Assembly: GCA_031263965.1 (NCBI GenBank)
Contig: JAISES010000123.1
Location: 1-5,295 of the forward strand
Length of the DNA: 5,295 nt
DNA from: Prevotella sp.
Lineage (GTDB): Bacteria; Bacteroidota; Bacteroidia; Bacteroidales; Dysgonomonadaceae
Reading direction: 5' to 3'
Below the pieces are notes generated by a model. That model was not told where the DNA came from, did no database searches, and saw only the letters and a program-made list of their open reading frames with translations. How positions within the stretch are numbered: position 1 is the first letter of the stretch; every line of letters starts with the position of its first letter. The translations under genes were made by a program, and so were the position numbers. Positions 868 to 4,562 of the stretch are shown in pieces.

Positions 868-898
868 TTTGATTTATTGCAAATAATGCATACTTTTG
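868..898 (+). promoter_or_regulatory. Bacteroidota-type promoter of the his leader/operon
   Basis: TTTG at 868-871 (-33 element) is followed after 19 nt by TACTTTTG at 891-898, a full match to the TAnnTTTG -7 consensus of the Bacteroidota primary sigma factor. Transcription should begin roughly at 903-906, about a dozen bases before the leader-peptide ATG at 918. Element identity and spacing are seen directly; the start site is inferred. Confidence 0.8.
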
Positions 899-917
899 TT
901 TCATAGAATAATTTTAT

Positions 918-980
918 ATGAATAACAAAGCACATCATTATCATTTTTATTACTGCCAAAAGGTAAGTAGCATATATTGA
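918..980 (+). CDS. hisL: His operon leader peptide (attenuation sensor)
   Basis: A 20-codon open frame, ATG at 918 and TGA at 978-980, lies between the promoter and the intrinsic terminator ahead of hisG. Its centre reads HHYHFYYC: His codons at 933-935, 936-938 and 942-944, with Tyr/Phe codons around and after them. Scarcity of charged His-tRNA would stall the ribosome there and leave the antiterminator segment from 962 free; a ribosome that reaches the stop would cover that segment. There is no Shine-Dalgarno sequence, only an AT-rich upstream stretch, as is usual in Bacteroidota. The peptide probably has no function beyond being translated. The symbol follows usage for enterobacterial his leaders; homology to them is not implied. 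The clustering of His codons and its position between promoter and terminator make chance unlikely. Confidence 0.85.
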   Translation: MNNKAHHYHFYYCQKVSSIY

Positions 981-1015
981 TGTGATGTCTGCAAAATATA
1001 TAGTGAGAGCTTACC
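931..1015 (+). promoter_or_regulatory. His attenuator: alternative leader RNA structures (pause and antiterminator hairpins)
   Basis: Antiterminator: GGUAAGU at 962-968 pairs with 1009-1015 (GCUUACC; the last pair is G-U), stacked on AUAUAUU at 972-978 pairing with 995-1001. This uses the 5' arm of the terminator hairpin, so the two structures exclude each other. Pause or protector pairing: CACAUCA at 931-937, which contains the first His codons, is complementary to UGAUGUG at 978-984; a second register pairs ACAUCAU at 932-938 with 982-988. These bases fall in the antiterminator loop, so this pairing would cross the antiterminator stem. The complementarities are read directly from the sequence; the switching model is inferred from classical his/trp attenuators. 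Confidence 0.72.
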
Positions 1016-1040
1016 GGAATGGTAGGCTCTTATTTTTTTT
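1004..1040 (+). terminator. Intrinsic terminator of the his attenuator
   Basis: Bases 1004-1015 pair with 1021-1032 around a 5-nt loop (GGAAT). The core AGAGCUUACC/GGUAGGCUCU has one G-U pair, and the base of the stem adds a G-U and a U-A. Eight T residues follow at 1033-1040. It lies upstream of hisG, not after a gene, and its 5' arm is shared with the antiterminator, so it is a regulated rather than a constitutive terminator. Confidence 0.9.
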
Positions 1041-1059
1041 ATAATATAAAACGGATATA

Positions 1060-1914
1060 ATGGTATTAAGAATTGCAGTACAATCGAAAGGCCGGTTATT
1101 TGAAGAAACAATGGAGCTGCTTCAGGAAGCAGGTATAAAACTAAATAACATTAAACGGACACTCCTTATTCCGGCGAAAGATTTTCCGGTAGAAATACTC
1201 TTCTTGCGTGACGACGACATTCCCCAAGCAGTAGCAACAGGCGTAGCCGATATAGGGATAGTCGGAGAAAATGAATTTGTAGAAAAAGACGAAAATGCAG
1301 ACATCGTTAAACGGCTGGGCTTTAGCAAATGCCGCCTGTCTCTGGCCATACCAAAAGATGAAGACTATCGGGATGTAAAATGGTTTGAAGGGAAAAAGAT
1401 AGCCACCTCCTACCCTTTCATATTAAAAAAATACCTGAAAAAACAGAATATCAATTCGGAAATACATATTATTTCAGGATCTGTAGAAATATCGCCAAGC
1501 ATAGGATTGTCCGATGCCATCTTCGACATCGTCAGCTCAGGCGGAACACTTGTCAGCAACCGCCTGAAGGAAGTAGAAGTCGTCATGCGTTCGGAAGCTT
1601 TATTAATTGCAGCGAGAAATATATCCCAAGAGAAAAAAGATATTCTTGATGAATTGATATTCAGGATAGAGGCCGTACAAAATGCAGAAGGCAAAAAATA
1701 CGTACTCTTGAATGCGCCGGAAAACAAGCTAAACGAAATATTCGGTATCCTGCCCGGAATGCGCAGTCCTACCGTTACACCGTTGGCGACAAAAGGCTGG
1801 TGTTCGGTACAGTCGGTTGTAGAAGACAAGCGTTTTTGGGAAGTTATCAACAAACTGAAAGGATTGGGTGCAGAAGGGATACTCGTACTGCCAATCGAAA
1901 AAATGATATTATGA
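1060..1914 (+). CDS. hisG: ATP phosphoribosyltransferase, long form (HisG)
   Basis: HisG joins ATP and PRPP to give phosphoribosyl-ATP, the first committed step of histidine synthesis, in the cytoplasm. The 284-residue length and layout match the long, hexameric, histidine-inhibited form: a periplasmic-binding-protein-like catalytic region (about 1-205) starting LRIAVQSKGRLFEE, then a C-terminal ACT-like regulatory domain (about 210-284) with YVLLNAPENKL, LPGMRSPTVTPL and the ending GILVLPIEKMIL. The family signature is at about 143-164 (E143, G149, D152, D156, then SSGGTL), the PRPP-binding loop. Having the regulatory domain, it should not need a HisZ partner. The ATG at 1060 gives the usual N-terminus and lies 19 nt after the terminator T tract, so its transcription is gated by the attenuator. 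The stop overlaps the next start as ATGA. Confidence 0.97.
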   Translation: MVLRIAVQSKGRLFEETMELLQEAGIKLNNIKRTLLIPAKDFPVEILFLRDDDIPQAVATGVADIGIVGENEFVEKDENADIVKRLGFSKCRLSLAIPKDEDYRDVKWFEGKKIATSYPFILKKYLKKQNINSEIHIISGSVEISPSIGLSDAIFDIVSSGGTLVSNRLKEVEVVMRSEALLIAARNISQEKKDILDELIFRIEAVQNAEGKKYVLLNAPENKLNEIFGILPGMRSPTVTPLATKGWCSVQSVVEDKRFWEVINKLKGLGAEGILVLPIEKMIL

Positions 1915-2453
1915 TACAGGTTTTAGACGATATTGTTTTAAATCCTCTCTCTGAAAAGGATATTCCCGACATATTCAACACCCTGAATAATGAACGGGAA
2001 TATATGCGAGTGTGGTTGCCTTTTGTAGATTACACTCACGAGATAGATGATACCAGAAACTTCGTAACTTCGGCGCTGCAAATGGAAGACAAGCAATTCG
2101 CGATCTCTTATCAAGGCAAATTTGTCGGTCTGGTAGGATTTAAAAATACCGATTCAGCCAATAAGAAAACGGAAATAGGATATTGGTTGTCTCAACATGC
2201 ACAAAGGAAGGGTATTATGGTACATTCTGTTTTGAAACTCATAGAATACGCATTCGGTGAAATGGGTATGAACCGGATACAAATAAAAGTCGCGGTAGAC
2301 AATCATCGAAGTAAACAGATACCCGAAAAATTAGGCTTCTTTCTCGAAGGAGTAGAACGTGACGGAGAGCTACTTGTGGACAATGTTTATACAGATATTA
2401 ATGTATATAGCTTGCTTAAAAAAGAATTCAAAGACAAATCATGCAAATCATAA
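1911..2453 (+). CDS. GNAT-family N-acetyltransferase, RimJ/RimL type, embedded between hisG and hisD
   Basis: A 180-residue acetyl-CoA-dependent N-acetyltransferase; the acceptor is unknown. The frame is open back to 1800, but the ATG at 1911 is preferred: it overlaps the hisG stop as ATGA and gives a standard RimJ/RimL N-terminus (IVLNPLSEKDIPDIF). Visible family features are the MRVWLPFVD segment (about 32-40), the acetyl-CoA loop region IGYWLSQHAQRKGIM (89-103, where a Gly/Ala often seen at the end of the Q/R-x-x-G-x-G/A motif is Met, as is common in this subgroup), and NRIQIKVAVDNHRS (121-134) followed by IPEKLGFFLEGV (137-148). RimJ/RimL relatives acetylate N-termini of ribosomal proteins, other proteins or small amines. 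The 4-bp overlap with hisG and 13-bp overlap with hisD indicate coupled translation under the his attenuator, yet no histidine-pathway step is known to need an acetyltransferase. The role is open. Confidence 0.9.
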   Translation: MIQVLDDIVLNPLSEKDIPDIFNTLNNEREYMRVWLPFVDYTHEIDDTRNFVTSALQMEDKQFAISYQGKFVGLVGFKNTDSANKKTEIGYWLSQHAQRKGIMVHSVLKLIEYAFGEMGMNRIQIKVAVDNHRSKQIPEKLGFFLEGVERDGELLVDNVYTDINVYSLLKKEFKDKSCKS

Positions 2454-3718
2454 AATATCCCGAACGGTCGGAATGGACGAAAATACTGGCTCGTCCTGTA
2501 TTCGACACATCATCGCTTAACAATACGGTAAGCGCCGTATTAAACGACATTAAGAGCGGAGGCGATAAAGCGGTATTGGAATACGAAGAAAAATTCGATA
2601 AAGTCAGGTTATCTTCCCTTACTGTCAACCCGAAAGAAATAGATGAAGCCGATGCGCTCGTCTCTGAAGAACTGAAAGCCGCGATTCGACAAGCAAAAAA
2701 GAATATCGAAACATTCCATCGCAGCCAGATATTTGAAACAAAGAAAATAGAAACAACCCCGGGTGTCACATGTTGGCAAAAAGCCGTCGCAATAGAAAAA
2801 ATCGGCTTGTATATCCCGGGAGGTACAGCTCCTTTATTCTCTACAGTATTGATGCTTGCCATTCCCGCCAAAATAGCAGGATGTAATGAAATTATACTAT
2901 GTTCTCCTCCTAATAGAGAAGGGAAAATACATCCTGCTATCCTTTACACGGCAAAAGAAGCCGGAGTAAATAAAATATTCAAAGCCGGAGGTATACAAGC
3001 TATCGGAGCAATGGCTTACGGCACTGAATCGATACCCAAGGTCTATAAAATATTCGGGCCGGGAAACCAATATGTAATGGCGGCTAAGCAATTAGTAAGC
3101 CTTAAAGACGTAGCTATCGATATGCCGGCCGGGCCATCGGAGGTACAGGTTATTGCCGATGATACCGCAAATCCGGCCTTCGTCGCTGCCGACCTTTTAT
3201 CACAGGCTGAGCACGGAGCCGACAGCCAGGTAATATTGACCACAACAAGCGAGGCCTTTATTTCGAAAGTTTCTCTGGAAACAGGGCTTCAATTAGCAAA
3301 GCTTCCTCGTCGCGATACAGCAGAAAAAGCTCTCCAAAACAGCAAGTTGATTTTATTGAAAGATAAGCAAGAGGTTATAGATATTACGAATCTGTATGCT
3401 CCCGAACATTTGATTATCGAAACTTCGCACTATATGGACATTGCTGATAAAACAATCAATGCAGGATCTGTTTTCCTTGGGCATTACACCCCTGAAAGCG
3501 CGGGAGATTACGCATCCGGAACAAATCACACCTTGCCTACGAACGGTTATGCGACAGCATATAGTGGAGTCAATCTGGATAGCTTTATCAAAAAGATCAC
3601 TTTTCAGGAAATAACCGGAGAGGGAATACAAAACCTCGGACCGACTATTGAGATTATGGCAGAAAATGAAGAGTTGTTTGCTCACAAAAATGCAGTAACT
3701 TTGAGGCTAAAAAAATAA
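2441..3718 (+). CDS. hisD: Histidinol dehydrogenase (HisD)
   Basis: HisD oxidises L-histidinol to L-histidine in two NAD-dependent steps through histidinal, ending the pathway; it is a cytoplasmic zinc homodimer. At 425 residues it is of normal length. The family signature is present at about 225-258 (AIDMPAGPSEVQVIAD ... LSQAEHG). By alignment with the E. coli enzyme the zinc ligands are Q255, H258, D356 and H415, and the catalytic Glu-His pair is E322-H323 in APEHL; all are intact, so the enzyme should be active. Other landmarks are IGLYIPGGTAPLFSTVLM (121-138), FGPGNQYV (205-212) and the DYASGTNHTLPT segment (356-367). The ATG at 2441 lies inside the acetyltransferase gene with a 13-bp overlap, giving MQIIKYPERSEW, a typical N-terminus. 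It is followed after 4 nt by a lipoprotein gene, not by hisC. Confidence 0.98.
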   Translation: MQIIKYPERSEWTKILARPVFDTSSLNNTVSAVLNDIKSGGDKAVLEYEEKFDKVRLSSLTVNPKEIDEADALVSEELKAAIRQAKKNIETFHRSQIFETKKIETTPGVTCWQKAVAIEKIGLYIPGGTAPLFSTVLMLAIPAKIAGCNEIILCSPPNREGKIHPAILYTAKEAGVNKIFKAGGIQAIGAMAYGTESIPKVYKIFGPGNQYVMAAKQLVSLKDVAIDMPAGPSEVQVIADDTANPAFVAADLLSQAEHGADSQVILTTTSEAFISKVSLETGLQLAKLPRRDTAEKALQNSKLILLKDKQEVIDITNLYAPEHLIIETSHYMDIADKTINAGSVFLGHYTPESAGDYASGTNHTLPTNGYATAYSGVNLDSFIKKITFQEITGEGIQNLGPTIEIMAENEELFAHKNAVTLRLKK

Positions 3719-4127: not shown

Positions 4128-4562
4128 ATGCATCCTCAAATAATAAAATACGGAAGTCCCGAATACGATGAGATGCTCGTTCTGCGAACTAAAATATTGC
4201 GTGAACCTTTGGGATTGACTTTCTCTCGGGAAGATCTGGAAAAAGACAAAGACGATTTCTTGCTTGCAATACGCCCGTCCGGCAATCAACGTATCGCAGC
4301 ATGCTGCATACTCACCCCTCTGGACAATAAAACAGGAAAGCTCCGGCAAATGGCAGTAGACGATACAGTTCAAAAGTCAGGACTGGGTACGGCTATGCTT
4401 GCCTTTGCCGAATATGTGGCTGCAAAAGAAGGTTTTGAAAAAATAACTTTGCATGCCCGCAAAGTAGCTGCCGGCTTTTACAAAAAATACGATTACAAAA
4501 TAGTCGGGGACGAATTTACAGAAGTAGGCATCCCCCACTATGAAATGGAAAAGGAAATTTAA
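4128..4562 (+). CDS. Small GNAT-family N-acetyltransferase
   Basis: A 144-residue single-domain acetyl-CoA-dependent acetyltransferase with unknown acceptor. The order of parts is standard: N-terminal region with LRTKILREPLGL (about 19-30), central strand DFLLAIRPSGNQRIAACCIL, then the motif A stretch LRQMAVDDTVQKSGLGTAML (72-91) in which Q82-K-S-G-L-G87 is the acetyl-CoA pyrophosphate-binding loop, and motif B LHARKVAAGFYKKYDYKIVGDEF (108-130). The ending EVGIPHYEMEKEI is common in ElaA-like and related small GNATs, so that is the closest subgroup I can offer. It is not closely similar to the acetyltransferase at 1911. A 60-nt AT-rich gap separates it from the lipoprotein gene, without a recognisable TTTG/TAnnTTTG promoter or Shine-Dalgarno sequence; the next gene follows after 11 nt. 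Confidence 0.9.
   Translation: MHPQIIKYGSPEYDEMLVLRTKILREPLGLTFSREDLEKDKDDFLLAIRPSGNQRIAACCILTPLDNKTGKLRQMAVDDTVQKSGLGTAMLAFAEYVAAKEGFEKITLHARKVAAGFYKKYDYKIVGDEFTEVGIPHYEMEKEI

Follow-up and report, generated by a model that had tools for sequence, protein, structure and literature searches.

A putative ribosome-mediated histidine attenuator upstream of hisG, with counterparts in sampled Bacteroidota genomes

Does the DNA at positions 868-1060 of the window (the whole 5,295-nucleotide stretch analysed here), which leads up to a hisG gene, work as a classical ribosome-mediated transcription attenuator that raises transcription of hisG and the downstream genes when little charged tRNA-His is available? 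We regard this as very probable, judging from sequence comparison and modelled folds. The parts of such a device, their overlap and their order are observed in the sequence or in its folding.

The gene downstream encodes the long form of ATP phosphoribosyltransferase with its C-terminal domain (hisG, 1060-1914, forward strand; Pfam PF01634 and PF08029, TIGR00070 and TIGR03455) and is followed on the same strand by a GNAT acetyltransferase gene (1911-2453; Pfam PF13302), which overlaps hisG by 4 nt, and by hisD, encoding histidinol dehydrogenase (2441-3718; Pfam PF00815, TIGR00069). The closest named HisG (96%) came from a MAG labelled Prevotella sp. (L002), where the order of these genes is identical. 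A second GNAT acetyltransferase gene lies behind hisD at 4128-4562, and both GNAT genes of the window are also present in L002. Upstream, positions 3-356 and 372-845 are tandem copies of one gene (IDxFIKKKSE..LTDAEAE..FIPLEAE), the second of which yielded no match in Pfam or NCBIfam; L002 carries a single copy, immediately upstream of hisG.

The next 23 HisG loci after L002 were labelled Dysgonomonas (18) or Prevotella sp. (5), and by relatedness we assign the source genome to Dysgonomonas. The loci labelled Prevotella sp. (L002, L003, L006, L010, L011 and L013) encode HisG proteins 85-96% identical to that of the window and group with Dysgonomonas; their labels are probably wrong. The source assembly comprises 3.5 Mb in 527 contigs with a completeness of 82.7%, and its hisB (PF00475) lies on a different contig, behind an aminotransferase-like ORF that we took for a putative hisC. 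Among the 22 genomes of the genus with a hisB match, 19 carry hisB 4.8-8.4 kb downstream of hisG on the same contig and strand, the exceptions being G000, G018 and G020.

On the forward strand, a promoter match at 868-898 consists of TTTG (868-871), a 19-nt spacer and TACTTTTG (891-898), and fits the Bacteroidota promoter consensus TTTG / TAnnTTTG as quoted in PMC7366714. The first-pass annotation had called a consensus-type promoter at this place and was right about its presence, while missing that its type is that of Bacteroidota; an E. coli sigma-70 promoter was rejected, as the 3 sites returned by a scan, where 2.2 were expected, all lie outside 868-898. The leader peptide ORF extends from the ATG at 918-920 to the TGA at 978-980 and encodes the 20-codon peptide MNNKAHHYHFYYCQKVSSIY. 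It contains the three His codons first described for it, all within four codons at 933-944 that read His-His-Tyr-His (CAT CAT TAT CAT; His at 933-938 and 942-944), where most relatives in the genus have CATCATCATCAT. Should transcription begin some 6 nt past the TAnnTTTG motif, the window leader would have a 5' UTR of only about 12-15 nt.

Between leader and hisG, the terminator scan and the fold placed an intrinsic terminator at 1002-1040 (stem 1002-1015/1021-1034, the second strand being arm 4, with a U tract to 1040). Stem and U tract reached -19.6 kcal/mol (z -4.38 against dinucleotide shuffles), this was the sole terminator-like site within 600-1300, and it ends, as annotated from the start, 19 nt before the hisG ATG at 1060. 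The 5' strand of the antiterminator is arm 2 (962-978, with a GGTAAG core at 962-967), delimited by folds and by the columns of a three-arm alignment, and its 3' strand is arm 3 (995-1015), delimited by folds and comparison, of which 1002-1015 doubles as the 5' strand of the terminator. When arm 4 was omitted from the fold, 962-968 and 970-978 paired with 995-1004 and 1009-1015, which reproduced the antiterminator with its shared arm as originally drawn. The fold of the antiterminator region 945-1022 (-14.4 kcal/mol) was not better than shuffles (z -0.70), nor was the arm 2:arm 3 duplex of the window alone better than shuffled sequence (p 0.25), so that it is comparative evidence that carries the antiterminator. 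The initial account had both of these hairpins right and missed a default (protector) hairpin, seen in the fold and in covariation within the genus, in which the His-codon strand (arm 1, 930-943) pairs with an anti-His segment (978-992); within it, an inner hairpin (950-957/962-970) sequesters arm 2 in the fold.

We propose that these parts would switch as follows. With His-tRNA scarce, a ribosome would stall on 933-944 with a footprint that leaves arm 2 free, arm 2 would pair with arm 3 ahead of the synthesis of arm 4, letting RNA polymerase read through. With His-tRNA ample, the ribosome would reach the TGA at 978-980 and cover arm 2, arms 3 and 4 would pair, and transcription would end near 1040. 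With no translation at all, the His-codon strand would pair with 978-992, arm 2 would be tied up and the terminator would form by default. We folded these states assuming that the ribosome covers about 12 nt past the codon, and obtained the antiterminator (-12.6 kcal/mol) with a ribosome on the His codons and arm 4 absent, the terminator alone (-19.6) with a ribosome at the stop, and, for naked RNA, arm 2 in the 5' hairpin and again the terminator. The terminator is the more stable of the two at equilibrium (-24.7 against -12.6), so the switch would have to be kinetic, as is likewise the case for attenuation in E. coli. The geometry put forward at the outset, in which stalling at 933-944 frees arm 2 and a ribosome at the stop covers it, agrees with these folds and with the 17 nt that separate the last His codon from arm 2 in the window, the footprint size being assumed.

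The comparison drew on 285 hisG upstream regions, taken from 80 named loci and, more widely, from genomes belonging to the family, the order and the phylum of the window; 255 of them were kept once short and duplicate regions had been removed. This survey is a sample and not a census, with regions taken for 120 further matches and up to 30 loci per search. A His-rich leader was defined as an ORF no longer than 45 codons that has at least 3 His in seven codons and lies within 330 nt of hisG. It was found in 219 of the 255 distinct regions, against 28 of 1275 dinucleotide shuffles, and, as a control, in 10 of 427 regions upstream of other ORFs (200 aa or longer) of the named loci, three of these ten being in reality hisG regions. 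Grouped by approximate kinship, the leader was present in 25/28 regions of the window's own genus, 135/160 of the same order, 44/45 of the same class and 15/22 of other classes of the phylum. Of the 219 regions with the leader, 207 also have a terminator with a score of -8 or better downstream of it and ahead of hisG (24 of 219 when shuffled), and 202 of these 207 scored -12 or better. The first-pass annotation had made its reading depend on leader and paired arms recurring in relatives, and the comparison did not refute it. The last His codon precedes arm 2 by a median of 17 nt (IQR 14-18, n=207), and the end of the leader stop minus the start of arm 2 has a median of 6 (IQR -2 to 13). In the sampled genomes, conservation extends well past Bacteroidales for the His leader, the terminator, the shared arm and the spacing.

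The promoter motif recurs as well: of the 207 loci with leader and terminator, 167 have TAnnTTTG in the 70 nt that precede the leader ATG, against 13 of 207 after shuffling. By group, these were 23/24 in the genus, 48/48 among other named loci, 71/88 in the order or family and 25/47 in the phylum (2, 2, 8 and 1 in the respective shuffles), with median distances to the ATG of 20, 20.5, 20 and 17 nt; in 11 of the 25 phylum loci with the motif, it lies a mere 6-10 nt from the leader ATG.

No His leader was found within 330 nt of hisG in 36 of the 255 regions. Three of these are explained, by a leader about 600 nt upstream (L005), by one that starts at 377 nt (L063) and by one with only two His by eye (L051); among the other 33, L022, L034, L064, L069 and L078 showed no convincing leader up to 3 kb upstream. 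L005 (D. hofstadii) holds about 0.45 kb of extra sequence between His leader and hisG, upstream of 5001, which would separate hisG from the attenuator. In L022 (Dysgonomonas sp. 520), we found no ATG-started His leader within 3 kb and, by eye, a terminator-like hairpin within 200 nt before hisG; possibly the sensor alone was lost there.

For covariation within the genus, we aligned 24 loci (alignment A3), leaving out L005, L022 and L085, which have no leader in place, and L092, which has one, and including L018, whose correct hisG region is not part of the survey counts. The nine-pair terminator core was 100% paired, with 4 pairs changed on both sides and a covariation score reached by 0 of 500 shuffles. 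Of the cells of the default hairpin, 89.0% were paired; 5 of its pairs were changed on both sides, and 1 of 500 shuffles scored as high. The antiterminator core was 99.3% paired, and its covariation was reached by 106 of 500 shuffles, there being too little variation for significance; in L013, a position shared by all three arms is altered together, from U-A-U to C-G-C. Covariation in both hairpins, the check proposed with the first description of the locus, thus appeared for the terminator within the genus and for the antiterminator between lineages but not significantly within the genus. Taken locus by locus, the protector hairpin reached p<=0.05 in 15 of the 24 genus loci (p 0.10 for the window alone), against 25 of 180 elsewhere. 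Two wider forms of default pairing were tried and rejected: pairing of the stretch after the His codons with arm 2 across the phylum was near chance (15/194 at p<=0.05), being on average slightly stronger than in shuffles (Wilcoxon p 1e-4), and general anti-His words (RTGRTG) between the arms were unconvincing, at 40/207 against 28.2 expected.

Between lineages, arms 2, 3 and 4 come in several sequence types (GGUAAG / CUUACC / GGUAAG; UCAGGCG / CGUCUGA / UCAGACG; UCAAGCG / CGUUUGA / UCAAACG), and the three arms change in concert. The arm 2:arm 3 duplex was better than shuffled upstream sequence (p<=0.05) in 110 of 207 loci, and in 167 of the 207, arm 2 paired more strongly with its own arm 3 than it did on average with arms 3 of other types (Wilcoxon p 1e-22, with relatedness ignored). 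The native pairing ranked among the best 5% of swaps in only 47 of 207, so that single loci, the window among them, are often unconvincing alone. The signal from ungapped 9-mer matching between the arms (6.63 native, 6.09 swapped) was weaker than that from duplex energies.

The window itself departs from most of its relatives in one respect, which limits what had been claimed for its leader frame: the His leader is conserved, and the frame 3' of the His codons is not the usual one. Typical relatives encode HHHHF(I/L)LLPxG(K/E) with a stop inside GGTAAGTAA, and 22 of the 24 leaders in A3 extend no further than the stop in GGTAAGTAA/GGTAAGTGA; the remaining two, from the window and from L087, read on to the TGA matching 978-980. 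The window leader passes the TAG at 968-970 because its run of five T (944-948) is one base shorter than the six in its nearest relative L002, and the L087 leader reaches the TGA because it has one base fewer before GGTAAG than L007. The five-T run could be an assembly error, given the incomplete and fragmented source assembly.

This departure makes it conceivable, and in our judgement unlikely, that the family of attenuators is real while the copy in the window has decayed, with Tyr for the third His and a shifted frame, and responds weakly or not at all. The window has three His codons and not four, the third codon of its His run is Tyr where most relatives have more His codons, and its frame differs from that of L002; its antiterminator duplex (-9.5) lies at the weak end of the genus range (-9.0 to -15.6 among the first 12 listed), and the leader of L051, with its two His, indicates that erosion does occur. 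However, the window terminator, at -21.2, is as stable as those of relatives (about -18.5 to -22.6), all arms are present, and the genome of L087, whose leader also runs to that TGA, is a 99% complete member of the genus (G023) assembled in one contig. Moreover, a ribosome at 968-970 or at 978-980 would in either case sit over arm 2, so the attenuation logic looks tolerant of the frame and would survive the shift.

We consider it very improbable that the His-rich ORF encodes a small protein with a function of its own, such as the binding of metal, with the terminator setting a basal level only. Runs of His could bind metal, and the ORF is widely conserved; yet the peptide outside the His run varies widely between lineages, the frame past the His codons shifts between close relatives, the spacing from the His codons to arm 2 is nearly fixed, and the recurring C-terminal GK-stop or QAR coincide, in our reading, with arm 2 nucleotides. 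Just as improbable is use of the terminator by another sensor (T-box, riboswitch or RNA-binding protein) with the His ORF incidental, a reading in whose favour we found nothing, as no Rfam family, T-boxes and RF00514 (His_leader) included, matched the window at E<=1.

Ribosome-mediated attenuation at hisG, the reading we prefer, gains from other leaders in the source genome, which we counted in its support. Upstream of pheA (L368:1333-1491), a Phe-rich leader ORF MNNFSFTYFFFFYFYFKK is accompanied by a TAnnTTTG promoter match and by a terminator just before the gene, and is likely a Phe attenuator by its sequence; upstream of a leuA-like gene (PF00682; L369, reverse strand, about 1322-1454), an Ile/Leu-rich leader ORF MKSHSIIISSLILLWRYLE with a strong terminator is likely an Ile/Leu attenuator. 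A search for trpE (PF04715) gave no match in the source genome.

Not every His leader in the sample precedes a terminator. Conserved His leaders (THHxHFHHR..., ...VHHFHHSS) stand before hisG in the families labelled f110 and f117 and in L139, L143 and L145, nearly all of them without an intrinsic terminator. In f110 (L337-L366; 48 matching genomes), the leader was present in 29 of 30 loci, and none of these 29 had a terminator scoring -8 or better; f117 (L308-L336; 57 matching genomes) had the leader in 27 of 29 new loci and a terminator in 4 of 27. In an alignment of 11 f110 loci, a long-range helix links the RNA 5' of the leader with the region immediately upstream of hisG; 86.4% of its cells are paired, 3 of its pairs are changed on both sides, and 4 of 500 shuffles attain its covariation score. 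RNAalifold nested three further main helices within it, with little covariation (term -0.13). We treat this helix as a lead, because the 11 loci were selected from 30 for being alike, and counting followed only after the helix had been spotted by eye. Nine hisG loci of f110 and f117 had no Rfam match. These families suggest, with a chance that we put at about even, that the hisG leader is a phylum-wide His-codon sensor with exchangeable outputs: an intrinsic terminator in most sampled lineages, the window included, and in at least two families another structured, terminator-less output, translational or Rho-dependent, one of them with a long-range helix.

Ribosome-mediated attenuation requires a ribosome closely behind RNA polymerase, and Bacteroidota are said to initiate translation largely without Shine-Dalgarno pairing. 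With the layout conserved in the phylum and the leader start some 12-15 nt from the predicted transcription start, the coupling of transcription and translation in Bacteroidota becomes directly testable. As a natural switch responsive to His, the hisG leader would also be of use in work on these bacteria, and it is a candidate Rfam family that annotation currently misses.

Among known systems, the enterobacterial his leader follows the same switching logic as the one proposed here. Enterobacterial hisL (RF00514) and the window share a His-codon leader upstream of hisG, a His-codon strand that pairs in a predicted hairpin and a downstream terminator. They differ in the number of His residues, which is 7 in an unbroken row in E. 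coli HisL, 3 in the window and mostly 3-6 per seven codons in its relatives. The E. coli leader has three hairpins in its Rfam model, and the window element lacks a covariance-model match, has arm 2 near or overlapping the leader stop, and carries TAnnTTTG shortly before the ATG. The Rfam His_leader model found E. coli hisL at 131.6 bits in our control, and no Rfam match was obtained in 20 further hisG loci at the gathering score or in 11 at E<=0.5. The window element thus appears to work like the enterobacterial attenuator while standing outside its Rfam family.

In some Firmicutes, His attenuators with leaders of three to five consecutive His codons have been proposed in 17 genomes (PMC9413887), and in bacilli a His leader peptide precedes hisZ and a hisS paralog (PMC2965389). 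As described in these sources, they resemble the window in placing a short consecutive-His leader before alternative terminator and antiterminator hairpins, and differ from it in phylum, with no evidence of shared descent.

Within Bacteroidota, small ORFs reminiscent of leader peptides are described in B. thetaiotaomicron (PMC7366714); the main text of a paper on Bacteroidota his genes (PMC8305728) does not use the word 'leader', and that of the 2024 B. thetaiotaomicron atlas (PMC10994844) contains neither 'attenuat-' nor 'leader' nor 'histidine'. We also note Lopatovskaya et al. (2010), as cited in PMC4833913. The statement made at the outset, that attenuators in Bacteroidota are known mainly from prediction, is roughly right and needs one amendment: a transcriptome study of F. 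psychrophilum reports strong indications of leader-peptide attenuation ahead of amino-acid operons, and its list of conserved structured 5' elements in Flavobacteriaceae that have no Rfam hit includes hisG (PMC9723704). That element shares phylum and gene with ours; in the relevant passages of that study, hisG is not named as attenuated, and no leader peptide, arms or covariation are given for it. Leader-peptide attenuation of amino-acid operons and a structured hisG element have already been reported in a flavobacterium (PMC9723704), and the window adds another member.
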